Source: Bidens hawaiensis
Lineage: Eukaryota; Streptophyta; Magnoliopsida; Asterales; Asteraceae
Length of the DNA: 64,000 nucleotides
Assembly (NCBI GenBank): GCA_021521415.1
Contig: JAIQDT010001953.1
Coordinates: 248,001-312,000, forward strand
Direction of reading: 5' to 3'
The translations under genes were made by a program, and so were the position numbers. Under the pieces are notes generated by a model. The model saw nothing but the letters and a program-made list of their open reading frames with translations, was not told the origin of the DNA and did no database searches. Shown here in pieces: positions 8,941-54,211 of this stretch; the stretch's first letter is position 1, and every line of letters starts with the position of its first letter.

Positions 8941-8945
8941 GAAAC

Positions 8946-9578
8946 TGTTGGTGCATGTCGTGTAACAGATGATCTTTTGTGTTTATTAGAATTGAGAGCA
9001 ACGGTCAAAGGGGAGACTGTTGGTGCATTTTGTGACCGTCGCTATGCAATTCTGATCAACGGAAACGAAGTACGAAGTTAGAACAACTTCGCCATAGGCG
9101 AAGTTATAACAACTTCGCCGTAGGCGAAGTTGTAACAACTTCTGCCATAGGCGAAGTTATAACAACTTCGCCTACTGAAGCCCAGGCCCGAGAATGTTTT
9201 ATATATATATATACGTGTGTCTTGTTTAGGTTAAGTTATCCAGAAATTAGTGTGTGTTTTGAGCAGTTTGTTTGTTTAGAGAGAGTAAGAGACAAGGAGA
9301 GTCGTGTGAGACGACCCGAGGTAGAGCTCACCTCGGGTCAGTCGTGTTTTCTGTTTGGTTACGGTATGTAACGTGTTTGTTTGATTATTATATAAGAATC
9401 TGCAGATTTGATTATCCCGTTCTTGTATTTGTTCGTGTATTTGTTCGTGTATGTGTTTATGTACGTGTATAATCGTGTTCTTCGTCTTTTACACCAATAA
9501 ACGAGTCTAGGAGGATTCCGCACTCCAAGACATCGTGCGGATCTCGTATCGATCGGCGACACCCCGGGGGGACCTACA
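8946..9578 (+). repeat. LTR type A, copy 1
   Basis: 633 bp, TGTTGGTGCATGTCG to GGGGGACCTACA, followed by a primer-binding site. It contains a run of GGCGAAGTT/AACTTCGCC inverted words (9085-9180), a TATA-like TTTTATATATATAT (near 9198) and a CACCAATAAAC poly(A)-type signal (near 9492). An internal AAAGGGGAGAC-TGTTGGTGCATTTTG word (about 9007-9032) repeats the PPT-plus-LTR-start pattern inside the LTR. A near-identical copy lies at 10623-11232. Confidence 0.85.
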
Positions 9579-10622
9579 TGTGGTATCAGAGCCTTAGGAT
9601 CTTATGCTATGGTTCGAGATCTGCGTTTTGGTGTTTCTGGCACGTTTCTATGCGTTTCTGGCCGAATAGCGCCGCAGGCGAAGTTATTGTTCATCAGGCG
9701 AAGTTGCCATCACTGTTCGTAGGGTTTCAGCGAAGATATAAGGTCTGGCGAAGTTATGAACAGGCAAAGTTGACTTTAGGCGAAGTTGACTTCTCGGCGA
9801 AGTTAAAAAAAAAAAAGAGTATTTGGAGTTTTCGTCTGTATGGCCAGGTGTACACGATTATTGTGAGACCGGAGATGTTGTTCCGTCAACGAGTGAAACT
9901 TGTTATCTCTGGGTCTTACGTGTGAACAAATACGTGTCAACTCTGGATACGGAGTTGAGTTTGTGAATGGGATATTGATTGAAACTAGATATTGACACAT
10001 ATTTGGGTGTTTGTGGGCAATGAAATTGTTGTTGTTCGAGGTTGACCAACTAAAGAAAGTCAAATTGAACTGAAGGTTTTTGTCATTACTGGATTGCGGT
10101 CAGAGCATATTATTTATGTTATTTTCAAGGCGTTCGAGAATTGGATTCTGAAACGTGATGCTTATTTATTAGAGTGAAAATTCTGGAACAAGTTGGATTT
10201 AATCGGGAACTAAAGTGTTTATGTTCTTGATCGTTATCCCGGGTGATTGAAGATGCTTCGGATTAATTAATGGTCATGTGTTAGATTCTGTCAAGGTGGT
10301 TTTGTGATGAAATTGATCACTTGATGTTGAGTAGTTGAAGATTAAACCTTATCGTATGCCGACGAGTTGGTGAAGTTGTGGAGGAAGCCCAACTTCACGT
10401 GTTGGTGAAGTCAGATGGACTCACGTGATTGGTTGAGATGATCTATTGGCACGAGGATACATGCATTTCAAATACCTCAATCGTTATAGTCGGAGAAGCT
10501 TACACTGGAGGGAAGATCTGATATGGAAGACGCTGGGTGATTGGTAGATTTGTGAAGCTACATGACAGATTCAGACACGGCTGGTTGACTGCAAACAGAA
10601 GAGCATCAGTTAAGAGGGGGAC
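9579..10622 (+). other. Non-coding internal region between two type A LTRs, with PBS and PPT
   Basis: It begins with the primer-binding site TGGTATCAGAGC (9581-9592) and ends with a purine-rich tract (AGAGGGGGAC, to 10622) directly before the next LTR. The 1044 bp between have no gag or pol similarity and only short chance reading frames. GGCGAAGTT-type words occur at 9670-9800. PBS, PPT and paired LTRs make it look like a small nonautonomous element, about 2.3 kb in all, of the LARD or TRIM kind. It would rely on proteins made by related elements. Confidence 0.65.
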
Positions 10623-11232
10623 TGTTGGTGCATGTCGTGTAACAGATGATCTTTTGTGTTTGTTAGAATTGAGAGCAACGGTCAAAGGGGAGACTGTTGG
10701 TGCATTTTGTGACCGTCGCTATGCAATTCTGATCAGCGGAAACGAAGTACGAAGTTAGAACAACTTCGCCATAGGCGAAGTTATAACAACTTCGCTGTAG
10801 GCGAAGTTGTAACAACTTCTGCCATAGGCGAAGTAAGAATAACTTCGCCATAGGAGAAGTTATAACAACTTCGCCTACTGAAGCCCAGGCCCGAGAATGT
10901 TTTATATATATATACGTGTGTCTTGTTTAGGTTTAGTTATCCAGAAATTAGTGTGTGTTTTGAGCAGTTTGTTTGTTTAGAGAGAGTAAGAGACAAGGAG
11001 AGTCGTGTAAGACGACCCGAGGTAGAGCTCACCTCGGGTCAGTCGTGTTTTCTGTTTGGTTACGGTATGTAACGTGTTTGTTTGATTATTATATAAGAAT
11101 CTGCAGATTTGATTATCCCGTTCTTGTATTTGTCCGTGTATTTGTTCGTGTATGTGTTTATGTACGTGTATAATCGTGTTCTTCGTCTTTTACACCAATA
11201 AACGAGTCTAGGAGGATTCCGCACTCCAAGAC
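10623..11232 (+). repeat. LTR type A, copy 2, truncated at its 3' end
   Basis: It matches 8946-9578 closely, with one extra GGCGAAGT-type unit at about 10825-10860. Identity stops at CACTCCAAGAC (11232), about 45 bp short of the expected CCTACA end. The sequence then passes straight into copia gag. Confidence 0.8.
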
Positions 11233-11244
11233 CACGTGAGAAAA

Positions 11245-12467
11245 TGAAGAAAGTGAGAAAGCTACTGGAGAAGAAAAAGCTTTCATGGCTGATGCTAAAG
11301 ACCAGCTCTCCGAGGTATGTTCTAAACCTACTTGTTCTAAATGTGAAAACTTATCTAAGCAATTAGCAACTATGACTGATCAGTATGTTAGTTTGGATGC
11401 TGAGTTTAAAACTCTAAAAGAAGATCATCATTTTACAAAAGCAAGAGAAAATAGCTATAAAGTTAAAATAAAAGCTTGTGAAAAAGATATTAAAAGTCTA
11501 AAAGCAAAACTTGCTGAAAAATTTCAAGTGATTGATCTAAGCTATGAAGTTTTGGAAGAAAAAACCAAACTAATAGCTGAAAGAGAAAAACAGATTGCTG
11601 ATCACCAGGTGAAAGTGGTGGAACTGAATAGAAAACTTGAGCAGTTCAGAAATTCCTCTGCTATTCTTGATCACCTTGTTAGTGATCAAGGTTCCTCAGT
11701 TAAGAGGGGAGGAATTGGTTATCATGAGGTTCCACCACCTTATAATCACAATTACACTTTTAATCCTAGTAATCAGAAATCTGTTGACTTTGAGGTTGTT
11801 CAGACAGTTCCAATTAAGGTAACTAGTAAAGAACCAGATGTTAGTAGAGGCGAAACAAGTCCTCCTATGTCAAGTGTTAAAATTTCTGTTCCGAGTCCGG
11901 TCTCATCAGATTCGGATAAGTCATTCGAGTCGGGTAAGACAAAGGAGGAGGTTGTATTACCAAATAGTGGAGAGAAAGATAAAACAACTAAAAAGAGTTC
12001 TCCGCTAAACCCTTATGTCCCACCATATGTGAGACGAACGGGCGGTAGTACAGCCTCGACATCCAAAACAACTGTTGAAAAGAAAGTTGAGCATAGGTGT
12101 TGTTTTAGGTGTAATAAATTAGGGCACCTAGTTGCAGATTGCCCTCTGAAGCAGCGATTCAGAGGTGTGAGGCATACCAAAACTGAGACTAAGCCTAAAT
12201 GTAATTATAATACTGGTAAAAGTGAAAACCATTCAAAATTCAGAAATCAGACTAATTCAGGTTTTCAAAGAAACCAATCTCAGTTTCACACTGCTGATAA
12301 TAAGTTATAATTCTTTCAATTCACAAAGGTTTGGAAGGCCTCACAATCAATCTACAAGGAGATATACTAATAGGACTTACAGGAATTATACAGAGACTAA
12401 CTTTGGAAAGCCAAAGTTCGGGATTTATAGATCCAAGACCAATTGGTCTTGGGTCCCTAGATTCTAA
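11245..12467 (+). pseudogene. Copia gag remnant (C-terminal two thirds), insertion 1
   Basis: Gag forms the virus-like particle and binds the element RNA. This remnant starts downstream of the LTR junction; the longest open stretch runs 11285-12310. It has a long charged helical segment (about 11340-11640), likely coiled coil, then a Pro/Ser-rich linker and one CCHC knuckle (CFRCNKLGHLVADC, near 12098-12140). Compared with the sister copy at 24669-26246 it lacks the first knuckle and has a frameshift near 12300. The tail then continues in another frame to a TAA at 12465-12467. The GAG|GTATGT sequence at 11312-11320 looks like a splice donor. Pol follows in the frame of this tail, 21 nt after the stop. 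Confidence 0.8.
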
Positions 12468-12482
12468 TCTTTTGCTTTAATC

Positions 12483-15400
12483 GTGCAGGAACAGTTGAAC
12501 AGGGCTGCCAATAATCTTTGGGTTGTGGATAGCGGCTGTTCCCGGCACATGACGGGTAACAAAATCTTGTTACACGATTTGAAACCTGTTCAGGGAGGGA
12601 GAGTGAGCTTTGCTGGAGAAAGTGGAGGCAAGATTACAGGAATGAGAACGGTGTCTAATGGAAAGATGACTCTAGAGAAAGTAAACTTTGTCGAAGAATT
12701 GAAGCACAATCTGCTGAGTGTGTCGCAGATCTGTGATAAAGAGTACACCGTACATTTTACAAAGAATGAGGCGATTGTGTTGCATCCTGGTTTTCAGATA
12801 CCAGAGGAGTGGATTGTGATGAAGGCTCCATGTGAGAGGAATACGTATATTATGGATATGAGGTCGACTGAAATGGCCACAGAAGAATCATGCCTTATGA
12901 CAAAAGCGAGCGAATCGGAGTCCGAATTGTGGCATAGGAGAATGGGGCACATTCATCTTCGGAAGATGAACCACATTGTCAAGAATGGACTTGTGCTGGG
13001 CGTTCCCTTGAAAAGTTTCAACTTTGAAGACAAATGTCTAGCGTGCAAGAAGGGAAAGCAGCACAAGAAATCCCATCACACCAAGAAGGTCAATTCTATT
13101 GTCAGTACTCTAGAATTGCTTCACATGGATCTCTTCGGTCCCGTGAATGCAAAAAGTCTAGGAGGTACTTCTTATTGCTTGGTGATCACTGATGATTACT
13201 CACGATATTCGTGGGTATATTTCCTGAAATCAAAAGATGAAACGGCTCAGATGGTGAAGAATTTGATTACCAAAATTGAGAACGTTATGGATAAAAGGGT
13301 TAAGTTCATCAGGAGTGACAATGGAACAGAGTTCAAGAATTTTGAAATGGAGATCTTCTGCCTTCAGAAAGGGATTGAGCACCAGTACAGCGCTCCGTAT
13401 ACTCCGCAACAGAATGGAGTGGCTGAGAGGAAGAATAGAACGTTAATTGAAGGAGCCAGAACTTTGCTGGCTGATTCGAAGCTTCCTGTGGTGTTCTGGG
13501 CTGAAGCTGTTGCTACAGCCTGTTATATCCTGAATAGAGTCTTGACTGTTAAAAGACTTAATAAAACGTGTTATGAGCTTATGCATGGGAGGAAGCCCAA
13601 CTTGAGTGGTCTTGAACCATTCGGGTTCCCTTGTTCGATTTTAAAGACAAATTCTAAATTTGGTGAAGTAGCCGATGAAGGAATCTTAGTCGGTTATGTT
13701 GTTGGAACTCCCAACAGACGTGTCTTTAATACATCGACCGGCAAGGTTGAGGTGGTGTGTAACACCGATATCACAAGTTACAAACCGCCAAAACCAAGCA
13801 ACGGACCTACTGAGTTTTTCGACTATGATAGACTTTTTAACTCTTTTAACATACCTTATTTGGATAGTGCAGAACTAGAAGAAAGAGTTGCTACGAAGAT
13901 GATCCTTGATGAGGAAGAAAATCTAGTGCAAAGACAGCTGTTTGATAAACGTCAACCTTCCTCATCAAATGCTATCGATACCCCTGCTGCCTCTCCTGAA
14001 GAAGAATTTTTCAATCCGTTTCACTCTCAGCAAGGAACAACCATTGACGAGCTCTCTTCTAACTTGGAAGACAATTTGCATGTCGGTTCGGTTCCGACCA
14101 TGAGAATTCATAAAGATCACCTTTTGGAGAATGTGATTGGTGATGTGTCCTCTGGTGTACAAACAAGACGTAGCTTGAATGAGCACACCTGTGTTTACAC
14201 AAGCATTAAGGAGACAGACATAATCAACGAATGCTTGTACACCTGCTTTATTAGCCAGATTGAACCAAAGAATTATCAAATGGCTCTAAAGGACAGCTCG
14301 TGGGTCGAAGCCATGCAAGAAGAGCTGGCTCAATTCAAGAAAATGGAAGTTTGGACTTTGGTTGAAAAACCAAAGAATGTGCATGCGATAGGCACAAAAT
14401 GGGTTTTTAAGTGCAAGAGAGATGAGAAAGGGATTATTATAAGAAACAAGGCGAGGCTAGTCGTTAAAGGTTTTAATCAACAAGAGGGGATTGATTATAA
14501 TGAAGTGTTCGCTCTTGTGGCAAGATTGGAAGCCATTAGATTGTTTTTGCCATTTGCTGCTTATAAGAAGATGAAGGTATTTCAGTTAGACGTGAAAAGT
14601 GCGTTCCTAAATGGGAAAGTTGATGAGGTTGTGTACGTTGAGCAACCTCCGGGTTTTCCTGACCCAGACTTTCCAGACCACGTGTACAAGTTAAGCAAGG
14701 CGTTGTATGGACTACATCAGGCACCTCGTGCCTGGTACTCAACCTTATCAGATTACTTGCTTGAAAATGGGTTTGAAAGAGGGAAGATAGATAGCACGTT
14801 GTTCTTCAAGAGAGAAGGAAGCGACTTCCTGCTGGTGCAAGTCTACGTGGATGACATTATCTTTGCTGCATCAAAAGTCTCCATGTGTCAGGAGTTTGAG
14901 GCCGTCATGAAGAAAAGGTTTGAAATGAGTGCTATGGGTGAACTAACTTTCTTTTTAGGATTGCAGGTTGATCAGAAGAAGGATGCGATGTTCATTCATC
15001 AGACCAAGTATGTCCATGATGTGCTCAAATGCTTCAAGATGGAGGACAGCACTCCATTCGATACTCCAATCTGCGTCAACCATAAATTGGGTGCTGAGAC
15101 AGACAATGACGCAGATGTGGACCAAACTCAGTATCGGGCTATTATAGGTTCTTTAATGTACTTAACTGCTTCTAGGCCTGATATTATGTCTGCAGTTTGT
15201 CTTTGTGCTCGTTTTCAGGCAAACCCAAAGGAATCTCACATGAAGGGTGTGAAGAGGATCTTGCGATATCTCAAAGGCAAACCTAAGCTGGGGTTGTGGT
15301 ACGCGAAGGGAGGAGACTTGGAGTTGGTAGCTTACACAGATTCTGATTATGGAGGGTGCAATCAGAGTCGGAAGTCAACTACTGGAGGATGTCAGTTTCT

Positions 15401-15791
15401 AGGAGGCAGATTAGTGTCCTGGCAATGCAAGAAGCAGACATCAGTCGCCATTTCAACATGTGAGGCAGAATACATGGCAGCATCCAACTGCTGCTCCCAG
15501 GTTCTGTGGATTCAACAACAGTTACGCGACTATGGTCTGAATTTCTCACTTACTCATATTTGCATTGATAACACAGCTGCTATCTCAGTAACTAACAATC
15601 CCGTGAAGCACAGTAAAACTAAACATATTGATATACGTCATCATTTTATACGGGATTGTGCTGAGAAGAAGCTGATTGAGCTCGAAAAGGTTGATACGCT
15701 TGATAATTTCGCTGATTCATATACTTAAGCATTTGACAAATCAAGATTTCAAAACCTTGTTGAGTTGAATGGGATGATCAATCCCGAGTAA
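12483..15791 (+). pseudogene. Copia pol (PR-IN-RT-RNase H), nearly intact, insertion 1
   Basis: A polyprotein of about 1100 codons that processes gag, inserts the cDNA and copies the RNA. In order: aspartic protease (DSGCSRHMTG, residues about 16-25), integrase zinc region (HRRMGH ... CLACKKGK, about 150-195), integrase core (MDLFGP, SDNGTEF, then the Glu of PYTPQQNGVAER), reverse transcriptase (KARLVVKGF, LDVKSAFLNG, YVDD near residue 788) and RNase H (YTDSDYGG, STCEAEYMA, DNTAA). The domain order IN before RT defines copia. A TAA at 15726-15728 cuts off the last 21 codons, which remain recognisable to the TAA at 15789-15791. No ATG lies at the start: the frame opens after the gag stop, so expression would need readthrough or splicing (acceptor-like GTGCAG, 12483-12488). 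Confidence 0.92.
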
Positions 15792-15821
15792 CCATGCTTT
15801 TTGTGCATATATAAAAAAAAT

Positions 15822-16101
15822 GTCACTATCGCTTAAAATTATGTCGGTTACCTCAGTTTGAAGGACATATCCTCGGATATGTTTGGTCCTCATTTTCTAC
15901 TTGTAGAGTATGAGGGTTGCCATTAACCAGATGACTGAAAGTGACCGGGGCGGTTTATGATGAGTTTTTTATTCTTTCGCTGAAAATTAGTCGATCATAC
16001 TTAGTTAGAAGGACACATACTTGTATGTGGTCGGTCCAGCTAATCCATTGGATTCGCAGGATAACCGTTTACCTGAAGACTTTGAACTGATCGGGGCGAT
16101 T
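15822..16101 (+). ncRNA. Tandem pair of tetraloop hairpin modules after pol, insertion 1
   Basis: Two related units of about 135 bp each contain a CGCT-GAAAATTA-GTCG-like word, a hairpin and a GAYCGGGGCG word. Hairpin 1 at 15865-15882 pairs ACATATC with GATATGT around a CTCG loop. Hairpin 2 at 16014-16029 pairs CACATA with TATGTG around a CTTG loop. Both hairpins sit inside GGAC...GGTCC. The same arrangement is at 29604-29881. It is a predicted cis RNA element of unknown function, not a separate transcript. Confidence 0.5.
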
Positions 16102-16543
16102 GAAGTCAAAAAAAAATTTTTTTAGGGAAATGAAATTATTTTTCAAGTCTACTACTTCGTAAGAAGTTCTGTTACTATGTTTTAACAGAAAATTGATCCA
16201 ACCTTGGAAAATGATAGATTTACTGATTCTGTGTGCTTAACTAGTGAAGTTATTAGGCTTAAAAGGCTTTAGAACAGTCATTGTATGTCATGGTAGCTTT
16301 TTATGGTGCGTAAAAGTAGAAGTGATACTAACTAAATCTACTCGATTTTATGTGGAAACTTCTTAAGAGTTCTGCATGTCTTCATATATATCTTTGCGAA
16401 TGATAGGCAGAAAAGCGATTACCCAGTCATACACGAGCCTGTTAGTGTTCTGATTCCCGTAAAGATAGTTTGTGAAGAAACTGCAGTGATCCAGATTCGG
16501 GACTTGCAGTTGTTTACTACTCTGAAGTCTATGTAAAGATTCG

Positions 16544-16576
<33 letters not shown>
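16544..16576 (+). repeat. Poly(A) run of 33 bases in the spacer
   Basis: An uninterrupted A33 lies between pol and the extra ORF. The sister element has only about A11 at the matching place (near 30319), so the run has expanded, probably by slippage. The reverse strand encodes only a poly-Phe artefact. Confidence 0.9.
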
Positions 16577-16581
<5 letters not shown>

Positions 16582-17139
16582 TGAGTTATTGAAACATTCT
16601 AGAGCTGACAATGTCAAGACTTCTCAATCATGGAGTAAGAAAGAGAACGAGAAGCAGATGAAGAGTACTTAGAAACTTAATCAGACACTATGGGTTGAAG
16701 TCAATTCGGGGTGACTTGGGGAAAACCAAATACGCTTTGAGAATAGATAGGAGGCATCATAATCTCTGAGTTGTTGCCCACTTAATTTTTGAGCTTAATT
16801 GAACTTAACTCGTATCACAGAAACAATGAAAACCATCTTAAGTTATTTACCTGCCTACGACCTGTTTCTTTATGTCATAATACAGCTAAACACGGATCTA
16901 TGTGACAGTCACGTAGTTAGTATGATTCCTGTTCGGATCTTTTCTAAAACATGGTAGTCCCTGTCTAGACTGAAATTTGATCCCTTGTACTTTAATTTTT
17001 AAAAGTTTTTCCTATTTATGTAGTTGTTGATTTTATAATTGGTTACTTAGTCTTGATCGTGTCATGTAACTCTTTAAGGAAGTTTTAAAACTTAATTGCA
17101 AATTGTTCAAATTATAGGGGTTGATTTTGTAAAATTTGA

Positions 17140-17860
17140 TATATCGGCGAACTTGTGAATAACTTCGCCCTAGGCGAAGTTATCCACAACTTCGCCTGTA
17201 TAACTCCGCTCTTATATAAAGGAATTTTTAAGGTCAAACATTTCATTATTTCAAAATATCAGCGAACTTACTATCTGTCAACCAGAGCGAAGTTATCGAT
17301 CTGTTCTTATCGATCTTCTGTTGTTTTTGTTACCTCGATTCAAATCCGATTCAAGGTGTGTAAGGTTCCATATTCGTATAATCATTGTCGTTAATGTTAA
17401 TCACAGGTCGATACGACCCGTTTCGTGACCTCGATTATTTGAAACCTAAACACCCGATTTTCAAACTTGTTTTACGTGATAGTAAACCACTTGAACGTAT
17501 AAAACTTCATAAAATCATGTATTTCGGAGTCCTTGATCTCCGAAATCATCATCTGCACGTCGTTCGAATCGCCTTACTGTCGCCGATTCAGATTCAGGCG
17601 AACTTACAGTTTGGGCGAAGTTATCCGTAACTTCGCCTGAGGTTTAACTTCGCCTGAGGCGATGTTGTGGTGAGGCGAAGTTATCATTAACTTCGCCTGG
17701 ACCTTTTTACTTATTAATTATTAGACGAACTTAATGATGAAGCGAATTTGTTCCCAACTTCGCCCCACCTTTAACATCGCCTATACAGATTTTATCACAA
17801 CTTCGCTCATGGTAACAAGCGAACTTGTGTTATGCTTTAACGTTTATCTAACTTGGTTCG
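17140..17860 (+). repeat. Cluster of GGCGAAGTT/AACTTCGCC inverted words, insertion 1
   Basis: At least a dozen copies or one-base variants of GGCGAAGTT or AACTTCGCC occur in about 700 bp, in both orientations, often as facing pairs 5-10 bp apart. The same words fill LTR types A and B and the matching spacer at 30895-31620. Confidence 0.85.
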
Positions 17861-17872
17861 TTTGTTGCAGAT
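17848..17872 (+). promoter_or_regulatory. Predicted branch point and 3' splice site before the extra ORF, insertion 1
   Basis: CTAAC (17848-17852) is followed by a T-rich run and TTTGTTGCAG ending at 17870, two bases before the ATG. The sister copy keeps CTAAC, T-rich run, TTGCAG and the same 2-nt distance (31623-31650). This fits plant 3' splice-site rules and would produce a spliced mRNA for the extra ORF. Confidence 0.55.
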
Positions 17873-19990
17873 ATGGCTGCTGTTGCTGGTGCTGGAGGTA
17901 CTGGTGGCGATGATGGAGGAGATCAACAAAGACAGTTCTTCCCGGGTCACAACATGTATATCACCTTAGACCCGGAAGCGAGCGGAGTTGATGATTTCCG
18001 CGAAATCATCACCTTCCTTTTACGCTCGAGGATATTCCACGCCATTACGACAACTCTGCCGATTTCCTTGCCCAACATTGAGGATTTCTGGCAGACGGTG
18101 GCTGACACAGATTTTGATGATGTAATGGATGAGGCAAGACGTATGATGGTGACTCAAGAGAGGACGTATGGGAAGAGAAAGAGGATAGATGACGACAGTG
18201 AGTCAGAAGAAGAAGAAGACATTCATAAGTTGATCAGACGTTCAAGAAGGGACAGGACAGGTGCAAGTAGGGGAGCCGGTGAGAGCTCTAGGGTGGTACG
18301 TTTCGCTCCGCCCGCACTGTCCGGTATGTCAATTGTCCCTACACCATTCCAGGTCACAAGGCCAAGCGCCACGGACGTTCCCGTGGTGGCTACATCATCA
18401 TCTGCTGGCCTCCCATCCATCACACTCCAGCTGACGACTCCAGATATTGTATCGTTGCCGCCTCCAACGCTTACTCCGTCGGAGGTTGTTGCACAGGTTA
18501 TTGAGTCGACAGTGGTTCACACTGCAGGGTTGTCGGTCACGATACCACCTGCGGTTACGTCCACAGCTACTTCTGATGTCCCGGTTTAATTCGAAATCCC
18601 TCCTCAGTATACTCAAGCCATATCTCACATGAGGTTTGATTTCGATGCAACCCTATCAGACTCGGAAAGAATAGCTGCACTTGAACGGGTCGTGGCAGAA
18701 CAATCAAGGGTGAATCTTATCCAGACCCAGGCTATTCAACGCCTAGTAGCAGAAAATCAACTACAGTCGTCCCTCCTGGTTGAACATGGAAAAATTATAG
18801 ATGCTATGAAGGAGTTCTTGGCATCTCAGAGGGAGACGAGCTGTAAAGGCGACGAGCTCAGGACAAAGAAGAAGAATGACAGAGACGATGATCCCAATGC
18901 ATCGAAAGGTGCAGGTGGTGAGTTGCCAAGAACTACTCAAGCTCTTGGGACAACCACAGCTCAGGGGGAGTCTGCAGGTGCAGCTGGCGGTTCTGGTGGT
19001 GATGAGGTGGTGATGGTAGATGACGAGGAGATGGGAGATGATGTGATCGATGCCTTGAAGGAGTTGGATGATGATATGTTAGATGATGATGATGTGTGTG
19101 ATGATGATGTGCTGCCATTAGAAGAAATTAAGAAGATTGGTGCACAGATAGTGATAGAAGATGATGTTGAAGAAGGTGAAATTGTAGAGGAGAATGTTGA
19201 ACACGAGCTTCCAACCGTTGAGAAGTCGAATGTATGTGAAGATACAGTAGTTGATGATACAGAATGGGAGGAGCAGCCTAGATGGAAGGAAGGCTATGCT
19301 CATTGGTTTATCAAAACGAAGAAGCCAGTGGTACCTACAATGTTCAAGAAAAGTTATAATATTAAAGGGTACGCTGAGTCAAAGAAAGGCATTATCTGTT
19401 GGTTATATGATGAACAGCTAAAAGTGCTCGTGGTGAAAAGATATGATGGGATCCAATACTTTAAGAGGACTTTGAGATCTCTAAATACCTTACCTGAGTG
19501 TGAGGTAAAGGATTTGGCCAGACTGGGGTTGATCAATCGAAGTGACGATAATATGGCCAGAGTTATTGGGAAGATAGTATGGAAAGAAAGTATTAAAGAG
19601 AAAAAGTTTGAGTTGTTAAAACCACAGAAAGGGAAATTAGTTGAAGATACTGAAAGAGGAATGAGAGCAGATGGCAAACCTTGGATGGTGATGAAATATA
19701 AGCCGATTCGGTGTTTGAAAGAGGTTCCAATGAAGACTATGCCTCAAGATGTGCTGAAAGATCTGAAATGGTGGTATGTGGATTGCCAGACTGCTGAAGC
19801 CGTGATGGAAGACGAAGACGAATAAGAAGTGCTAAGAGTGTATGATCCGATGCATCTTGTTAATTTATCTAAAGCTGATCTGCAGGTGTTAAATGAGAAG
19901 AAGATATTTTATATTCCTGCTTGGAAAGGCGAAGCGAGGAAATATCAGCGAGTAGTCACGGTCTGTGTAAGAGAGGGAGTGCATGCATGA
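17873..19990 (+). pseudogene. Extra ORF after pol (env-like position), internally deleted copy
   Basis: Function unknown. It occupies the place where Sireviruses carry an envelope-like gene. The start ATG lies 2 nt after a splice-acceptor sequence. The protein has a Gly/Ala-rich start (residues 1-17), a conserved DDFREIITFLL...FWQTV segment, a KRKR basic patch, a Pro/Ser/Thr-rich region, a likely coiled coil (about 18650-18830; ERIAALERVVAEQ), a strongly acidic region (Asp runs near 19020-19110) and a conserved C-terminal block (WEEQPRWKEGYAHWF to VREGVHA). Compared with 31651-34574 it lacks about 280 codons right after FWQTV, in frame. In-frame stops lie at 18587-18589 and 19823-19825; the frame resumes after each. 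No transmembrane segment is obvious. Confidence 0.75.
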
Positions 19991-20035
19991 AGATTACAAG
20001 ACAAGTGCTTAAAGATAAAGATATGAAGCTACTGC

Positions 20036-20047
20036 CAAGGGGGAGTC
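20036..20047 (+). promoter_or_regulatory. Polypurine tract before LTR type B, insertion 1
   Basis: CAAGGGGGAGTC lies directly before TGTTGG and would prime plus-strand synthesis. The same tract precedes the LTR at 34655. Confidence 0.85.
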
Positions 20048-24404: not shown

Positions 24405-24463
<59 letters not shown>

Positions 24464-24557: not shown

Positions 24558-24608
<51 letters not shown>

Positions 24609-26246: not shown

Positions 26247-26261
26247 TCTTCTGCTTTAATC

Positions 26262-29200
26262 GTGCAGGAACAGTTGAACAGGGCTGCAAACAATCTATGG
26301 GTTGTGGATAGCGGCTGTTCCCGGCACATGACGGGTAACAAGAATTTGTTACACGAATGGAAACCTGTTCAGGGAGGAAGAGTGAGTTTTGCTGGAGAGA
26401 GTGGTGGAAGGATTACTGGAATTGGGACGGTGACTAATGGTAAAATGACGTTAGAGAAAGTGAATTTCGTTGAAGAACTGAAGCATAATCTGCTGAGTGT
26501 ATCGCAGATCTGTGACAAAGATTACACTGTGCACTTTACCAAGAATGAAGCGATCGTACCGTATCCTGGTTTCAAGATACCAGAGGATTGGATAGTAATG
26601 AAGGCTCCAAGGGAAAAGAATACGTAGGTTATGGACATGAGGTCGACTGAGATGGCAACAGAAGAATCGTGTCTTCTGTCAAAAGCAACTGAATCGGAGT
26701 CCGAGTTATGGCATCGAAGAATGGGGCATATTCATCTTCGGAAAATGAACTACATTGTCAAGAATGGGCTGGTGCTGGGTGTTCCCTTGAAAAATTTCAA
26801 CTTTGAAGACCAATGCTTATCGTGCAAAAAGGGAAAGCAACACAAGAAGTCCCATCACACCAAGAAGGTTAATTTAATAGTCAGTACCCTAGACCTACTT
26901 CACATGGATCTCTTCGGTCCCGTGAATGTAAAAAGCCTAGGTGGAACATCATACTGTTTGGTGATCACTGATGATTTCTCTCGATATTCTTGGGTATATT
27001 TCCTGAAGACAAAGGATGAAACGGTTCAGATGGTAATAAATTTGATTACCAAGGTTGAGAATATTATGGGGAAAAAGGTTAAATACATCAGGAGTGACAA
27101 TGGGACAGAGTTCAAAAACTATCAGATGGAGATCTTCTGCTTACAGAAAGGGATAGACCACCAGTACAGCGCCCCGTATACTCCGCAACAAAATGGGGTG
27201 GCTGAGAGGAAGAACAGAACGCTAATTGTAGGAGCCCAAACCATGCTGGCTGATTCTAAACTTCATGTGGTGTTCTGGGCTGAAGCTGTTGCAACAGCCT
27301 GTTATATCCTTAATAGAGTTTTAACTGTTAAAAGATTGAATAAAACATGTTATGAACTTATGCATGGGAGAAAGCCTAACTTGAGTGGTCTCGAACCATT
27401 CGGGTCCACGTGTTCGATATTAAAGACGAACTCAAAATTTGGTGAAATAGCCGACGAAGGTATTCTAGTCGGATATGTTGTTGGGACTCCCAACAGACGA
27501 GTCTTTAATCTATCAACCAGCAAGGTTGAGGTGGTGTGTAACACTGACATCACAAGTTACAAATCACCAATACCAAGCACGGGACCCGCTGGGGCTTTCG
27601 ACTATGATAGGCTTTTTAAATCTTTTAACATGCCTTACTTGGATTGTGCAGAAGTTGATGAGAGAATAGCTACGAAGATGCTTTACGATGAGGAGGACAA
27701 TTTTGTGCAAAGACCGTTGTATGATGAATGTCAACCTTCCTCGTCAAATGCTGTCGATACCCCTGCTGCCTCTACTGAAGAGGAATTCTTCAATCCGTTT
27801 TACTCTCAACAGCAATCACCCATTGATGAGCTACCTTCGAACCAGGAAGACAATCTGCAAGTCAGTTCGGTTCCGACTACGAGAGTTCACAAAAATCACC
27901 CTTTGGAGAACGTGATAGGTGATCTGTCCGACGGTGTACAAACAAGACAAAGCTTGAATGAGCACACCTGTGTTTACACAAGCATTAAAGATACAGGCAT
28001 CATTAACGAATGCTTGTACACCTGCTTCATCAGCCAGATTGAACCAAAGAACTATCAAATGGCTCTCAAGGACAGCTCGTGGGTTGAAGCCATGCAAGAA
28101 GAGTTAGCCCAGTTCAAGAAGATGGAGGTATGGAATTTGGTTGCAAAACCGAAAAATGTGCATGCGATTGGCACAAAATGGGTTTACAAATGCAAGAGAG
28201 ATGAAAAAGGGATAATTATCAGGAACAAGGCGAGGCTGGTTGTAAAGGGTTTTAATCAGCAAGACGGGATCGACTACAATGAAGTGTTTGCTCCTGTGGC
28301 GAGATTGGAAGCGATTCGACTGTTTTTGGCATTTGCTGCACACAAGGAGATGAAAGTGTTCCAGTTAGACGTGAAGAGTGCGTTTCTTAACGGTAAAGTC
28401 GATGAGGTTGTGTACGTTGAGCAACCTTCGGGTTTTCCTGACCCAGACTTTCCTAACCACGTGTACAAGCTAAGTAAAGCGCTTTATGGGCGACATCAGG
28501 CCCCTCGTGCTTGGTACGCAACTCTATCCGATTACTTGCTTGAGAATGAATTTGAAAGGGGAAAGATCGATAGCACACTGTTCTTTAAGAGAAAAGGAAG
28601 CGACTTTCTTCTGGTGCAAGTCTACGTGGACGACATCATCTTTGCTGCATCAAAAGTCGCCATGTGTCAGGAATTTGAAGCCGTCATGAAAAAGAGGTTT
28701 GAAATGAGTGCTATGGGTGAACTAACTTTCTTTTTAGGACTGCAGGTTGATCAGAAGAAAGATGGGATGTTCATTCATCAGACTAAGTATGTCCATGACG
28801 TTCTCAAACGCTTCAAGATGGAGGACAGCACTCCATTTGATACTCCAGTTTGCGTCAACCATAAATTGGGTGCTGATTCAGACAGTGATGCAGACGTGGA
28901 CCCCACCCAATATCGGGCAATCATAGGTTTTTTAATGTACTTAACTGCATCAAGACCTGATATTATGTTTGCAGTTTGTCTTTGTGCTCGCTTTCAGGCA
29001 AACCCAAAGGAATCTCACTTGAAGGGTGTGAAGAGGATATTGCGATATCTCAAAGGCAAGCCTAAGCTAGGGTTGTGGTACACGAAAGGAGGAGACTTGG
29101 AGTTAGTCGCCTACACAGATTCTGATTATGGAGGATGCAATCAGAATCGGAAGTCAACAACAGGTGGATGTCAATTTCTTGGAGGAAGATTAGTGTCATG

Positions 29201-29570
29201 GCAGTGCAAGAAGCAGACCTCAGTTGCCATTTCTACCAGTGAAGCAGAATACATGGCAGCATCAAACTGCTGCTCCCAGGTTCTTTGGATACAACAGCAA
29301 TTGCGCGATTATGGTCTGAATTTCACTCATACTCTTATTTGCATAGATAACACTGCTGCTATCTCAGTAACTAACAATCCCGTAAAGCATAGCAAAACTA
29401 AACACATTGACATCCGTCATCATTTTATACGGGATTGTGCTGAGAAAAAATTGATTGTGCTCGAAAAGGTTGATACGTTAGATAATTTCGCTGATTTGTT
29501 TACTAAAGCGTTTGACAAAACTCGTTTTCAAAACCTTGCTGAGCTGAATGGGATGATCAATCCCGAGTAA
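26262..29570 (+). pseudogene. Copia pol (PR-IN-RT-RNase H), one internal stop, insertion 2
   Basis: The same polyprotein and functions as at 12483. Protease (DSGCSRHMTG, near 26307), integrase zinc region (HRRMGH ... CLSCKKGK), integrase core (MDLFGP, SDNGTEF, QQNGVAER), reverse transcriptase (KARLVVKGF, YVDD near 28622) and RNase H (YTDSDYGG, STSEAEYMA, DNTAA, KHIDIRHHFIRD) are all visible. The C-terminus is complete, ending LNGMINPE before the TAA at 29568-29570. The single break is a TAG at 26625-26627, between protease and integrase. The frame opens without an ATG after GTGCAG (26262-26267), as in insertion 1. Spacing to the hairpin module downstream is the same in both elements. Confidence 0.92.
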
Positions 29571-29603
29571 CCGTGTTTTTTTGTCTTTGTTTTAAAAAAA
29601 AAC

Positions 29604-29881
29604 GTCACTATCGCTTAGAATTACGTCGGTTGCCTCAGTTTGAAGGACATATCTTCGGATATGTTTGGTCCTCATTTCTACTTGTAGAATATAAGGATAG
29701 CCATTAACCAGATGACTGAAAGTGACCGGGGCGGTTTATGATGTGTTTTTAATTCTTTCGCTGAAAATAAGTCGTTCATACTTAGTTAGAGGGACACATA
29801 CTTGTATGTGGTCGGTCCAGCTGATCCATTGGATCTTCAGGATAGCCGTTTACTAGAAAACTTCGACTTGATCGGGGCGAT
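29604..29881 (+). ncRNA. Tandem pair of tetraloop hairpin modules after pol, insertion 2
   Basis: Hairpin 1 at 29647-29664 pairs ACATATC with GATATGT around TTCG, forming a C(UUCG)G tetraloop in RNA. Hairpin 2 at 29795-29810 pairs CACATA with TATGTG around CTTG. Stems are unchanged from insertion 1; the loop of hairpin 1 differs (CTCG there). A predicted cis RNA structure of unknown role. Confidence 0.5.
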
Positions 29882-30894
29882 AGAAGTTAAAATTTTTTTA
29901 TGGGAGATGAAATTATTTTTCAAGTCTACTACTTCGTAAGAAGTTCCTTTACTATGTTTAACAGAAAATTGATCCAACCTTGGAAAGTGATAGATATACT
30001 GATTCTGTGTGCTTAACTAGTGAAGTTACTAGGCCTAAAAGACTTTAGAACAGTCATTGTATGTCATGGTAGCTTTTATTGGTGCGTAAAAGTAGAAGTG
30101 ATACTAACTAAATCTCCTCGAATTTACGTGGAAACTCCTTAAGAGTTGTGCATGTCTCCATATATATCTTTCCGAATGATAGGCAGAAAAGCGATTACCC
30201 AGTCATACACGAGCCCGTGAGTGTTCTGATTCCCGTGAAGATAGCGTGTCAAGAAACTGCAGTGATCCAGATTCGGGACTTGCAGTTGTTTACTACTCTG
30301 AAGTTGTGTAAATACTTAAAAAAAAAAATTTTTGTTATTGAGACATTCTAGAGTTCATAATGTTAATACTTCTCAATCAAGATGTAAGAAAGAGAACGGG
30401 AAGAAGAGTCTAAAGATCGAAGAGTACTTACTATTTAATCAGACACTACGGGTCGAGGTCAACTCGGGGTGACTTGGGGGAAGCCAAATACGCTTTGAGA
30501 ATAGATAAGAGACATCATAATCTCTGAGATGTTGCCCATTTAAGTTTTGAGCTTAATTGAACCTAACCCGTATCACAGAAGCGATGAAAACCATTTTAAG
30601 TTATTTACCTGCTTAAACCCTGTTTCTTTATGTCATAATACAGCTAAACATGGATCTGTGTGACAGTCACGTAATTAGTATGATTCTTGTTCGGATCTTT
30701 TCTAAAACGTGGTAGTCACTGTCAAGACTGAAATTTGATCCCGTGTACTTTATTTTTAAAATTTTTTCTACTTATGTAGTTGTATGATTTAATACCTGGT
30801 TACTTGGTCTTGATCGTATCATTTAACGCTTTAAAGGATGTTTTAAAACTTAATTGCAAATTGTTCAAATTATAGGGGTTTGTTTTGTAAAGTT

Positions 30895-31620
30895 TAATAC
30901 TGGCGAACTTATCCATAACTTCGCCTGCAATAGGCGAAGTTATCCATAACTTCGCCTGTATAACTTTGACCCTATATAAAGGAAATTTTAGGTCAGACTT
31001 GTTATTATTTTCAAAATCCGGCGAACTTATCTTCCTGTAACCCTAAGCGAACTTATTGCATCGAATCATCTGTGTTATTTTTCCTCAGTTCTAATCCGAT
31101 TTAAAGATGTGTAGGGTTGTTGTATCGTATAATCACTGTCATTGATGTAAATCAAACGTCGTTTCGACCCGTTTCATGCCCTCGGTCTTTCGAAACCTCA
31201 ACACCCGATTTTCAAACCTGTTATTACGTGGTCGTAATCAACTTGATCGTCTAGATCGTCTTAAAAACATGTTTTACGAGATCCGCAATCTCCAAATTGA
31301 CCGAAATCACTTCGTATTGAACGTCTAACTGTTGTCGCTTCATATTCAGGCGAACTTACGGTTTAAGCGAAGTTATTCTTAACTTCGCCTGAGGTTTAAC
31401 TTCGCCTGATAATTAATTATGTAACAGTATATGAGGCGAAGTTGTGGTTAGGCGAAGTTATCATTAACTTCGCCTTGCCCTTTTTATTTAACATTTATTA
31501 CGCGAAGTTCAAGTTGAGGCGAAGTTGTTCCCAACTTCGCCCACCTCTAACTTCACCTATACAGAATAAATCATAACTTCGCTCATGGTAACAGGCGAAC
31601 TTGTGATTTGCCTTGACGAT
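30895..31620 (+). repeat. Cluster of GGCGAAGTT/AACTTCGCC inverted words, insertion 2
   Basis: More than a dozen copies and near copies in both orientations, for example facing pairs at 30919-30960 and 31360-31480. The order resembles 17140-17860 but is not identical, so words have been gained or lost. Confidence 0.85.
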
Positions 31621-31622
31621 TC

Positions 31623-31650
31623 TCTAACTTAGACTGTTTTGGTTGCAGAA
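31623..31650 (+). promoter_or_regulatory. Predicted branch point and 3' splice site before the extra ORF, insertion 2
   Basis: CTAAC at 31623-31627, a T-rich run and GGTTGCAG ending at 31648, two bases before ATG. The arrangement matches 17848-17872. Confidence 0.55.
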
Positions 31651-34574
31651 ATGGCTGCTGTAGCTGGAGCAGGTGGTGCAGGTGGTGATGAAGGTGGAGA
31701 CAACAACCGACAGTTTTTCCTGGGGCATAACATGTAAATCACTTTGGACCCGGATGTGAGCGGTGTAGATGATTTCCGCGAGATCATCACGTTTCTACTC
31801 CGCTCGCGTATATTCCACGAGATTACCACAACACTGCCGATATCTTTGCCAAACATTGACGATTTCTGGCAGACAGTGGAATATAACTGTCGAGTCAAGC
31901 CCCCGGTTATGCGTGCAACGGTTAACAATCAGATAGTTCAGTTCTCGTCTGAACAGATCAAGGTGGCTTTACAGTTTGGGGATGAAACGCGAGACGATCC
32001 TACAGACTTTGTAGCTCCATTCCGAGATGGTGCGTTTCTGAGGATAGGATATCCTGGTCCTTTGGGGGATACTCAGAGACGCAAGGGGTTCTTGCTAGAC
32101 CAGTGGCGCTTTCTCATGCACGTGATGATCGTGTGTATGTCAGGGAGAAAGGCTGGTACAGATGGAATGGGTGGGACCATGCAGTCGGCGATGACTGCAC
32201 TGACTTACAATAAGCGTTACATCTTTAGTCAGATGGTATTTTACGAGATAGATTGTCAAAGACGAGCGGTGGCGCGTGAGAGATTTCTGATGTATCCAAG
32301 ATTCCTACAAATGATCTTGAATCACGTCGCTCCCACGTTACCTCAGCGCCGCCCAATTAGATATGTGGAAAGTGTCAGCAAGAGAATCTTCGCTCAGTGC
32401 AGATCATCGAGTGCAAGAAGCAAACCTGAGCTTCGTCCTCGACATACTCCATTATTCGGGTACTTGATCAACCCAGAGTATGTTCCAGCTCATGGGGACG
32501 AGTTTAGGGATCCTCAACCACAACAGGCTGGAGCACCTCAACCACCACCTGAGGTACAACAAGCTTTACCTGCTGCTCCTGTTGTGGCACCGGAGGAAAA
32601 TGTAGACCTTGAAGCTGCGTTTGGCGGTCAAGGATTTTTTGATATGGATCGTGTTGACCCTGAGGAAGAGGTACAGGTCTCGGTAGCCCGGGTTACTAGT
32701 GTGGATGTTGCTAGGGTAGCTACGACTGAGGCTGATTCTGATTCTTCAGATGATGATGTGGCAGAAGCGAGACGGATTTTGGTTACACAAGAAAGGATTC
32801 ATGGGAAGAGGAAGAGACACAATGATGACAATGAGTCAGATTTTGAGGAAGATTTACATCAGTTGGTCCATAGATCGAGAAGGGAACGGGCAGGTGCAGG
32901 TTCGGGAGCTGGTGACAGCTCAAGGGTGGTTCGTTTCACTCCACCCGCACTGTCTGGTATGACTATAGTCCCTACACCATTGCAAGTTACAGGGCCAATC
33001 GCCACGGATGTTCCCGTGGTGACTACCTCATCTTCCTTCGGCATCCCACCCACTACATTCCAACTCTCGACTCCGGAGATTGTATCTTTGCCACCTCCAA
33101 CTCTTACTCCAACGGAGGTCGTGGCAAGATTTATTGAGTCGACAGTTGTAGCTACTGCAGGGTTGTCAGTTACGATACCACCTGCGGTTAAGTTTACGCC
33201 TACTTCTGAGGTCCCGGTTACATTGGAAATCCCTCCTCAGTACACTCAAGATATATCACATCTGAGGTTTGATTTCGATGCAACCTTATCCGACTCGGAA
33301 CGAATAGCAGCGCTTGAAAGGGTCGTGGCAGAACAATCAAGGGTAAATCTTATCCAGACCCATGCTATTCAGCGCCTCGTTGCAGAGAATCAGATACAGT
33401 CGTCCCTGCTGATCGAACATGGAAAAATAATTGATGCTTTGAAACAGTTCTTGGCATCTCAGGGGGAGACGGGCTGTAAGAGTGATGAGCTGAGGACGAA
33501 GAAGCGTAATGATCGAGACGATGATCCCAATGCATCGAAAGGTGTAGGTGGAGAGTTTCCAAGAACTGAACAAGCTCTTGGGACTTCCACATTTCAGGGG
33601 GAGTCAACGAGTGCAGCTGGCTGTTCAGGGGGTGATGTTGTGGTGGTTGTGGATGCTGAGGAGGTGTTAGATGATGTTATAGGTGATGAGGATATGTTAC
33701 CGATGGAGGAGATAGAGAAGATAGGGGCTGAGATTGTCATTGATAGTGAGATTGAAGAGGGAGAGATTGTAGAGGAGAACATTGAGCACGAGATTCCGGA
33801 AGTTGATAAGGCAGATATAGGTCAAGATATGGGAAGCGATGAGACAGAATGGGAGGAGCAGCCAAGATGGAAAGAAGGCTACGCTCAGTGGTTCGTAAAG
33901 ACTAAGAAACCAGCGGTCCCTACTATGTTCAAGAAAAGTTACAACATCAGGGGTTATGCTGAATCGAAAAAGGGGATTATATGCTGGTTATATGATGAGC
34001 AGTTGAGGCTCTTTGTGATTAAAAGGTATGATGGGGTTCAGTACTTCAAGAGACTGTTGAGATCGTTGAATACGTTGCCTGAGTGTGAAGTGAAGGACTT
34101 AGCCAGGTTGGGGTTGATAAACAGGAGTGATGATAACATGGCTAGGGTCATTGGAAAGATAGTCTGGAAGGAAAGTATAAACGAGAAAAAGTTCGAGCTG
34201 TTGAAACCACAGAAAGTAAAACTTATTGAAGATAAAGATAGAGGAATGAGAGCAGATGGCAAGCCTTGGATGATCATGAAGTATAAGCCGATCCGGTGTC
34301 TAAAAGAAGTACCGATGAAACAAAGCCCAAGGATGTGCTCAAGGATTTGAAGTGGTGGTACGTTGATTGTGAAACAGCTGAAGCAGTAATGGAGGATGAA
34401 GATGAACAAGAGCTGATGAGAGTTTATGATCCTATGCATCTAGTGAATCTGTCTCAAGCTGATCTGCAGGTGCTGAACGAGAAAAAGATATTTTATATTC
34501 CTGCTTGGAAAGAAGAATCAAAGAAGTATCAAAGAGTTGTTTCGGTTTGTGTACGAGAAGGCGTTCATGCTTGA
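31651..34574 (+). pseudogene. Extra ORF after pol (env-like position), fuller copy
   Basis: About 970 codons of unknown function. Order: Gly/Ala-rich start; a conserved N-terminal block (codons about 45-230) with FWQTV, QWRFLMHVMIVCMS, MQSAMTAL, FSQMVFYE and RFLMYPRFLQ; Pro/Gln-rich linker (about 285-320); acidic Ser/Asp stretch; basic KRKRH; Pro/Thr/Ser-rich region; likely coiled coil (about 546-605); acidic region; C-terminal block (from about 733) with EEQPRWKEGYAQWF and ending VREGVHA. Similar post-pol reading frames with the FW...MYPRF pattern occur in Asteraceae copia elements (general knowledge, not searched). Breaks: a TAA at 31736-31738 (codon 29) and a 1-nt loss near 34320, after which the frame continues to 34574. 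No signal peptide or membrane helix is evident, so an envelope function is doubtful. Confidence 0.78.
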
Positions 34575-34642
34575 AGATGAAAGATACAAGATTTTTGGGA
34601 TTACAAGACACGTGTTTGAAGATAGAAAGATGAAGCTACTGC

Positions 34643-34654
34643 CAAGGGGGAGTC
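34643..34654 (+). promoter_or_regulatory. Polypurine tract before LTR type B, insertion 2
   Basis: CAAGGGGGAGTC, identical to the tract at 20036-20047, directly before TGTTGG. Confidence 0.85.
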
Positions 34655-35065
34655 TGTTGGTACATGATGTCAGTAGTTCAGTGTCTAGTGTCTGTAATCG
34701 AGTTAGTTGGATTTGTATTTTGTATTAAGCGAAGTTAGCTCACAAGTTCGCTGATATAGGCGAACTTGTGGAATAAGCGAAGTTAGGGACAACTTCGCCT
34801 AAACATGTTAGGCGAAGTTGTCGACTGTTAAATAGCCTAGGATACGACATAGTTTTAAGTTTTCAGTTTACGAGTTATTCAGTTTGTGTAATCGGTGATC
34901 AGTGAATCACGTGTTTCCAGTTGCAATACAACATGTCTTTGTTTATTGTAACGTGTGTTTGATCGTGTTAACGTGTATCGTCTTCAACGCTCGTAACGTC
35001 TTACGTAGGGATTCCGCACCTACGTAGAACGAGATATTCCGTGTAGATCCGGCTGGGAACCTACA
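34655..35065 (+). repeat. LTR type B, copy 2 (3' LTR of insertion 2)
   Basis: 411 bp, TGTTGGTACATGATGTCAG to CTGGGAACCTACA. It shares GGCGAAGTT-type words (34730-34815), GGGATTCCGCACC and AGAACGAGATATTCCGTG with 20048-20486. It is followed by the target duplication CTTCT. Confidence 0.85.
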
Positions 35066-36072
35066 CTTCTGCTCTTTTTAGTTTGTCATATTTACAAGTT
35101 CCATGGATATGGGTTCTAAGAGTTTATCCTCGGTTTAACCGTAAATAGCTCTAAACCGTAAACCGAACTTTGTTTACTAGTTTTTGTTAAATAATTGTTT
35201 AAACATGTTAAGTGTTAGATTTAAGTTTTTTAAATCATTTTTATAAGTTCTATGGTTATGGGTTTGTAGAATCTTACCTCGGTCTTAACCCGAACCAAGA
35301 TCCGAACCGAAAACCGAACTTTCGTTTAAAGACCTTATTATTAACTTTTTGGTTGTAAAACTTAAGTATTTTCATTTGTACATTATTATACGAGAAAGCT
35401 TGAAATAAATCAACCCGCGTAACTTAAATCGTACTTGAATGCTTAAAATTAAGTAGTGGAAAATATCATGGGAAATTAAGATAATAAGGTTTGTATTTTG
35501 AAGTTTATTATAAAAATAAAAGTCGTTTCTAAAGAGGAAGCAAAATAATTTTTTATAAAGATAAAATTTTGCTTATGAGGAAATTAAAATAAGTTAATTG
35601 AATGTCGAAATTTGTTATGAGGTAACAATATGGATGATGAAAATTGTTTTACGAATAAAAATTTGCGTAATGAAAATTTTTATTATGTTCGTTATTTAAT
35701 ATTGTGTAACGAAAATATCATGATAAGTTAAAATGACCGGCATTGTGAATCGGGAAATCGAAATAAAGGATTTTTGTCTTTAAAAGATAGAATTTTTATG
35801 AGGTTTTGCATGAGGATTTCAAGACAATTACAAACTATAAAGCTGTGGATTTCTTGAAAAATCAAGGCAAAACTATCATAAGAAATTTAAAATGAGTTGA
35901 ATTGTATAATGCAAATTTTATTTATGAAAAGTTATAATGAACCAAAAGTTTCATAATGAAAGTTTTTATGAGAATAAATTTGGGTAATAAAAATTCTACT
36001 ATGTGTATTATATAATATAGTGTAATTAAAATGTCATCAGAAATTTTAAATAATCAATATTGTGAAATGTTA
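35066..36072 (+). repeat. Repeat X, plus-strand copy, right part
   Basis: After the duplicated CTTCT, two about 150-bp units (anchors AGTTCCATGGATATGGGT near 35098 and AGTTCTATGGTTATGGGT near 35248) match the inverted array at 5870-6610. From about 35380 to 36072 the DNA is AT-rich with repeated AATGAAAATTTTTAT-like words and no gene. Confidence 0.6.
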
Positions 36073-46999: not shown

Positions 47000-47002
47000 G
47001 AT

Positions 47003-54206: not shown

Positions 54207-54211
54207 CATTA

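Follow-up and report, generated by a model that had tools for sequence, protein, structure and literature searches.

Two Bidens hawaiensis insertions with long terminal repeats of two families and exact target-site duplications

Introduction

The two long terminal repeats (LTRs) of one insertion are normally identical after reverse transcription. Du et al., in 2010, reportedly described LTR swapping in soybean. Closest to the case presented here are the complex LTR retrotransposons of Triticeae, rice and maize, which are flanked by target-site duplications (TSDs) and for which strand transfer between co-packaged RNAs was put forward (Sabot & Schulman 2007, PMC1950507). Here we describe two insertions in a 64,000-nt window (the whole stretch analysed) of Bidens hawaiensis, assembly GCA_021521415.1, contig JAIQDT010001953.1, positions 248,001-312,000 of the forward strand. 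Each insertion begins with an LTR of one family, A, ends with an LTR of another family, B, and lies between the two copies of an exact 5-bp TSD.

Several other plant systems are related. In Arabidopsis, the available text of Sanchez et al. 2017 (PMC5668417) reports high-rate recombination among Onsen copies during a burst; the exchange described there is pairwise and within one family, whereas the LTRs of our two families are largely unrelated. Truncated and chimeric EVD insertions in Arabidopsis mutants, together with extrachromosomal circular DNA (eccDNA), are reported in the available text of PMC10462705, which includes two truncated insertions with clear TSDs and leaves their origin open. 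All truncated insertions in that text had two LTRs, whereas here one end is the LTR of another family or, in the copy C422 described below, the left end has no LTR. According to the part of PMC9744471 at hand, autonomous and non-autonomous wheat partner families such as Wilma, Sabrina and WHAM share only a few motifs, and gene conversion or template switching was proposed for their host switches; mixed-end, TSD-flanked insertions are not described in that part. Cassandra comprises small non-autonomous LTR elements in tandem arrays, with template switching as one suggested route (PMC7215508, available text); these resemble the probable arrays of A reported below but are of one family only. At the level of titles and the opening of abstracts, we found no literature report of TSD-flanked insertions with LTRs of two families.

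Results

Structure of the two window insertions

The genome searches covered the window's own 3.47-Gb assembly, and the best 40 candidates were scored per repeat query; C-numbers denote contigs or copies there and L-numbers fetched stretches. The features of insertion 1 (8946-20486) are as follows.

8941-8945, plus strand: left TSD, GAAAC (sequence; empty-site paralogue in L018)
8946-9578, plus strand: 5' A-type LTR, long form, 633 bp (pairwise A LTR alignment)
9018, plus strand: where a short-form A LTR would start (other copies begin with the short form)
9579-10622, plus strand: A internal spacer, with the primer binding site (PBS) TGGTATCAGAGC at 9581 and the polypurine tract (PPT) ..AGTTAAGAGGGGGAC at its end
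10623-11232, plus strand: second A LTR, last 47 bp missing, ending 30 nt past AATAAA
11233-11239, plus strand: A-B junction of 7 nt, CACGTGA, partly A-like (sequence)
11240-15728, plus strand: 5'-truncated B with the C-terminal part of gag (zinc knuckle) and pol (integrase, RVT_2) (open reading frames, ORFs; Pfam)
15729-20047, plus strand: B linker, envelope (env)-position ORF region and PPT CAAGGGGGAGTC
20048-20486, plus strand: 3' B-type LTR, 439 bp
20487-20491, plus strand: right TSD, GAAAC (sequence; empty-site paralogue)

In insertion 1, the two A LTRs are distinguished by 6 substitutions plus two indels (26 and 2 bp), and pol is ~98% identical to copies with B LTRs at both ends (B/B), such as C7, C618 and C3047. 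The second A LTR stops near a possible A transcript end, which might fit an RNA jump in this one case. The insertion interrupts the leader of an older copia, whose PBS is at 8223 and whose gag begins at ~20697, and a paralogue of this host in L018 represents the empty site: it is collinear across the joined flanks with no gap at the junction, carries AAAAC where the window has GAAAC, and shows several small gaps elsewhere in the alignment. When the A-B junction was used as a 129-bp query, the best 40 of 1,526 candidates included one spanning match, the window itself, and the other 39 covered the A side only or the B side only. In the older copia (8223-8940 and 20492-22988), gag is followed by an LTR-like stretch, and no pol was seen separating the two.

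Insertion 2 (24641-35065) has a much shorter A part.

24636-24640, plus strand: left TSD, CTTCT (sequence)
24641-24667, plus strand: 27-bp A-type LTR terminus (exact match to a genomic terminus present 2,896 times)
24668-24695, plus strand: filler of 28 nt, starting with CTTCT
24696-29570, plus strand: 5'-truncated B of a second subfamily, gag from EMDLQW on and pol, with in-frame stops (ORFs, Pfam)
29571-34654, plus strand: B linker, env-position ORF (870-aa open frame at 31738-34350) and PPT
34655-35065, plus strand: 3' B-type LTR, 411 bp
35066-35070, plus strand: right TSD, CTTCT (sequence)

The 27 bp and the first bases of the insertion 1 A LTR agree at 25/27 positions, and exact copies of this terminus number 2,896 (1466 + 1430) in the assembly; a reversed-pattern control gave 0. 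In the ten native A copies printed, the 27 bp are followed by GATGATC, indicating that the A part of insertion 2 ends at 24667. Immediately 3' of it stands a third CTTCT (24668-24672). The filler contains 14 nt that recur unchanged in B ~340 bp downstream, a match reached in 0 of 3,000 shuffles, and its last 8 nt together with the next GAAG repeat a stretch 40 bp downstream. With a 105-bp junction query, the window was again the one spanning match among the best 40 of 1,173, the other 39 covering the B side only. Identity between the B bodies of the two insertions is ~85% over 6.9 kb and ~76% over the last 2.4 kb, indicating different subfamilies and independent events.

The initial annotation had described unlike LTR ends, exact TSDs and an A piece followed by a 5'-truncated gag at both insertions. 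All three were confirmed at the correct coordinates, with 7 nt (insertion 1) or the 28-nt filler (insertion 2) lying between the A piece and gag. It was also right that A and B have common terminal words, which are TGTTGGTGCAT at the left and ACCTACA at the right. A chance 5-mer match between local flanks is expected at about 0.0015-0.002 per locus, and exact TSDs were found at five fusion loci, namely the two window insertions and 3/3 further fusions that were followed. This chance of ~0.2% per locus, together with the L018 empty site of insertion 1, indicates that the TSDs are real.

The window junctions show no sign of amplification among the scored matches, and a propagating hybrid family behind the window loci finds no support, given one spanning match per junction among 40 scored. 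The same A/gag junctions, which the initial annotation had suggested looking for at other loci, were thus absent elsewhere from the scored matches; A/B fusions with other breakpoints are present at other loci.

A/B fusions outside the window

For the survey of A, 28 A-LTR copies were hand-picked from the first 100 listed of 2,896, with 10 copies read over ~230-260 bp and 18 over ~690-700 bp. Fusions of A to B were found in 5/28 of these copies, and all breakpoints differ: A continues for 110 bp and then joins pol (C15), for 86 bp before inverted pol (C3:6643258), for 465 bp before the linker (C8), and for 512 bp before an inverted A R-U5 and then the env region (C3:6145213), while in C6 an A LTR and the start of the PBS precede the linker.

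Three of the fusions were followed to their ends, and the interiors of C15, C3 and C8 are known solely from fetched stretches. C15 (1975295-1983052) reads CTTCT, short-form A LTR, PBS, spacer, second A LTR (LTR'), pol fragments and, at its right end, a B LTR and CTTCT. C3 (6143574-6147081) starts with TGTTA and a short-form A LTR, continues to an A LTR', an inverted A piece and env, and closes with a B-like LTR and TGTTA. C8, which runs on the minus strand from 4210212 down to 4202853, has the TSD GTTAT on both sides. Its left part consists of a long-form A LTR leading to an A LTR', which is joined to the linker and then env. Its right part consists of a B LTR without much of U3, a PBS, 34 bp of A leader and an inverted A LTR ending at the U3 start. 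Consequently, the outer ends of C8 are A U3 starts on both sides, in inverted orientation.

The host flanks of C8, when joined, form one 196-residue frame that matches Proton_antipo_M (7e-48; residues 3-157 of 166, with the junction at residue 127). The target thus reads as a plastid-type gene copy on an 8-Mb contig, and we take the gene to be ndhF. Among the five TSD-flanked fusion loci, the empty-site evidence covers insertion 1 and C8.

At all five loci the A-type left ends lie exactly at PPT-defined U3 starts, of the long form in insertions 1 and 2 and C8 and of the short form in C15 and C3. In addition, crossovers were found at the PBS: C8 passes from a B LTR through the PBS into A leader, and L026 shows the reciprocal arrangement, from an A LTR through the PBS into B leader.

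Two further candidates were set aside. C10575 (L050-L052) was dropped as a mixed-end insertion: B leader adjoins its inner A LTR end, and on the left the copy extends beyond the contig. Here, a block comprising pol, gag, leader and A LTR lies inverted within a B copy, one breakpoint falling in the A LTR and the other in pol; more simply, it is probably an A nested in the B leader with a later inversion. C4, in which an A LTR lies 8.6 kb downstream of B gag, was not counted, since the flank of its A end matched no element piece tested.

Families A and B

A and B are ordinary separate families, of which 3 A/A and 11 B/B copies have exact TSDs. A appears to be a small LTR element in which a spacer occupies the position of the genes. 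Its layout (LTR-PBS-spacer-PPT-LTR with a TSD) is that of terminal-repeat retrotransposons in miniature (TRIM) or large retrotransposon derivatives (LARD), and the A/A copies C5018, C15610 and C3310, with LTRs ~1.7 kb apart, have the exact TSDs AGCAT, TTATC and TCCCG (3/3). The A unit contains only two ORFs of at least 110 aa (111 and 150 aa). The A LTR exists as a long form (from 8946) and a short form (from 9018), each behind its own PPT; at the U3 starts of native A, GTTAAGAGGGAGTC stands before TGTTGGTGCATG and TCAAAGGGGAGTC before TGTTGGTGCATTTTG. As seen in the window at 9005-9029 and 10609-10705, A has two polypurine tracts separated by 72 bp, and each is followed by TGTTGGTGCAT, giving the long and short LTR forms at integrated ends.

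The LTRs of A and B align over short words and GCGAAGTT repeats only, and their first 11-12 bp are common. The PBS, the terminal words and a 70-bp leader segment are also common to both families. This segment, 9688-9757 of the A spacer (~110 nt past its start), is 86-93% identical (mostly 90-93%) over 70 bp to the leader of many B copies. It is a possible packaging or dimer signal; when a single A copy and a single B copy were folded individually, the structures differed. The Kimura two-parameter (K2P) distance of the insertion 1 A pair is 0.010, within the range of six B/B pairs (0-0.0115), which places A and B in one age class and suggests that they were active together.

Series of the A terminus were observed on the same strand at C12:2741288-2786850 (23 matches in ~45 kb, mostly ~1.8 kb apart) and at C7:1684384-1693087 (6 matches ~1.7 kb apart), which are probably tandem arrays of A. 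At C28:4573108-4584709, seven B gag-start matches are spaced 1,925-1,926 bp apart, a tandem array of a gag-bearing unit.

B has the motifs expected of a Sirevirus-type copia. Its PBS, ATTGGTATCAGAGC, follows the 5' LTR in L007, L008 and L025, and the window copies have lost it; it agrees with the Sirevirus motif TATCAGAGC, located directly downstream of the 5' LTR according to the available text of PMC2829016. The Sirevirus PPT octamer AGGGGGAG starts 10 bp upstream of the 3' LTR, and CAAGGGGGAGTC abuts TGTTGG at 20036-20053 and 34643-34660. Pfam matches were obtained for a gag zinc knuckle and for a copia-type integrase and reverse transcriptase (RVT_2). Some Sireviruses carry an envelope-like gene between pol and the 3' LTR; the long ORF at this position in B is without a Pfam match and has three protein relatives, all in Asteraceae (Helianthus, Mikania and Tanacetum). 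The family was searched for in viral contigs, and nothing was confirmed there.

A search with the insertion-1 B LTR yielded 33 copies from the best 40 of 2,112 candidates. Classification by 5' ends, as the initial annotation had proposed for all copies with a B-type 3' LTR, was run on this set and gave 11 B/B copies with an exact TSD (C8790, C308, C618, C3047, C7, C15217, C254, C141, C37, C2728 and C6372) and the window copy as A/B. The LTRs of C15217 are separated by ~23 kb that include another element. The set also holds C10575, described above, C422, described below, one B/B copy with a 4/5 TSD (C231), one solo LTR (C14461, AGTAA/AGTAA) and two complexes, C12 (PPT-LTR-PBS) and C2520; a further 12 copies, read at the 5' end only, all have a B LTR followed by the PBS. 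The flanks of C14545 (ATTAC/AACAT) do not match, the 5' end of C883 was not found in the fetched stretches, and C370 was not fetched. For the insertion-2 B LTR, ten LTR pairs 7.3-12.3 kb apart were judged from coordinates alone, with TSDs not read. The initial annotation had named, as what would refute it, full-length B relatives with B at both ends together with A/B mixtures at the two window loci only. The first half holds (11 exact TSDs, one 4/5) and the second does not, since three further fusions are flanked by TSDs.

One copy, C422 (L015/L004), is a 5'-truncated B without a left LTR, with the left end TAAAG.. and the exact TSD AAGCG/AAGCG. When its host flanks are joined, an open frame of >300 residues crosses the junction; the Retrotrans_gag match in this frame is located downstream of that point and does not span it. 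C422 indicates that truncated molecules can integrate, and also that A is not required for this.

Elsewhere in the window, the direct repeats 45095-47003 and 52302-54210 are 99.9% identical over 1,909 bp, with a PBS word at 47003. The stretch 45095-54210 is probably a very young LTR insertion.

Probable joining before integration

We consider it likely that A and B cDNAs were joined before integration, by strand transfer and end joining, and that integrase used the LTR-type ends available to it. DNA copies of A and B would have met before integration, and a 5'-truncated B cDNA would have been fused to an A cDNA with an incomplete 3' LTR. One part of the joining would be strand transfer in reverse transcription at common words (the PBS and the PPT/U3 start), the other end joining with filler and inversions. 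Integrase would then have inserted the finished chain by whichever LTR-type terminus stood at each end, producing one 5-bp TSD around unlike ends. On the strand joined by integrase, the U3 end would read ..CCAACA and the U5 end ..CCTACA, which is nearly one terminal word.

Three observations point to this order of events. First, at five loci a single TSD encloses the entire chain. Second, C8 bears one LTR end at both sides, inverted. Third, the PBS crossovers of C8 and L026 fall at a 12-nt word where strand transfer takes place during reverse transcription. The A left ends stand at PPT-preceded U3 starts, as predicted by plus-strand priming. The earlier proposal that 5'-truncated B cDNAs were joined to A ends before integration is thus supported, and its alternative of later deletion or recombination explains the inverted A U3 ends of C8 poorly. 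The proposal had also placed the joining inside the particle. This detail is supported only in part: the PBS crossover of C8 indicates reverse transcription, and the inverted pieces indicate end joining, in the particle or elsewhere. Double-strand end joining is the better fit for inverted pieces and filler, and we propose a mixture of strand transfer and end joining. We infer co-packaging in one particle, the timing of each join and the joining enzymes.

Alternative explanations

Among the alternatives, an unlikely one that survives best is DNA capture after integration, in which an A element with its own TSD broke in its 3' LTR and captured a 5'-truncated B cDNA, the right joint forming via ACCTACA. 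With one 7-bp microhomology, this would account for the TSD, for filler where the left side was joined and for a right end that is exact; A is very abundant, and ACCTACA ends both LTR types in the window. However, the right joint must fall in the terminal 7 bp each time at insertions 1 and 2, the B ends of C15 and C3 are variant, and capture does not give C8, in which the right TSD is adjoined by the U3 start of an inverted A LTR.

C8 is equally unexplained by a repair patch or gene conversion after integration, which we regard as improbable. Here, a B insertion would have broken in its 5' LTR, copied A from the shared first 11-12 bp and rejoined in gag. These common base pairs would keep the original B terminus and the TSD, and the filler at junction 2 suits such repair, but a break within 12 bp of the terminus is needed at each locus. 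Moreover, C15 has a short-form A LTR, PBS and spacer after its TSD, and C3 also opens with the short A form.

The nesting of one element in the other (B in A or A in B), followed by two deletions that removed exactly the unwanted ends, is very improbable. An A within a B leader is probably present at C10575, and deletions are common in plant LTR elements; nevertheless, two deletions per locus are needed, one of them base-exact at the TSD, and five loci agree. Unrelated neighbours with coincidental matches, or an assembly artefact, can hardly be credited: a 5-bp match is short and nothing else was found in favour, against ~0.002 per locus at five loci, by which chance TSDs were ruled out, an empty-site paralogue and a restored host frame.

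Several points weigh against joining before integration. At the window loci, the common terminal words mean that a post-integration patch or capture ending there gives the same sequence, and a post-integration origin is possible for the window pair alone. Filler and inversions are usual in chromosomal break repair. At insertion 2, the third CTTCT resembles filler templated by the target flank; in that case, junction 2 would have formed after integration. The filler pattern there suits chromosomal break repair, so that a longer A part may once have existed, and the left part may have been reduced to 27 bp after integration. Furthermore, no extrachromosomal molecule was seen, the joined forms being known here from the genome assembly alone, and the A sample (28 copies) is neither large nor random, with 3/5 fusions followed.

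Discussion

The mixed-end loci extend the template-switch complexes of Sabot & Schulman (PMC1950507). As in those complexes, insertion 1, C15 and C3 consist of two fused elements with an internal LTR and a 5-bp TSD, the internal LTR being truncated here; insertion 2, in contrast, has no internal LTR. The outer LTRs of the published complexes are highly similar, whereas insertions 1 and 2, C15 and C3 have A at the left and B at the right. The published complexes contain two complete cores, whereas B in the window has no 5' LTR, PBS, leader or gag start. Inverted pieces and filler are a further difference.

A wider proposition follows the same lines, and we hold it to be evenly balanced: that in this plant cDNAs of an autonomous and a non-autonomous copia family are repeatedly chained before integration, in either orientation and in truncated form, with integrase taking any two terminal words, such as A U3 with B U5 or even two inverted A U3 ends. 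If this is true, the rule of identical LTRs would fail at many loci, and truncated insertions would need no internal deletion after landing.

LTR identity serves both the dating of insertions and the annotation of full-length elements, and mixed-end insertions should be difficult to detect with software that searches for LTR pairs. They may be annotated as nested elements or as broken ones. Such insertions would offer a handle on when and how truncated plant LTR insertions arise, a question left open in the available text of PMC10462705, and a genomic record of families that share particles.

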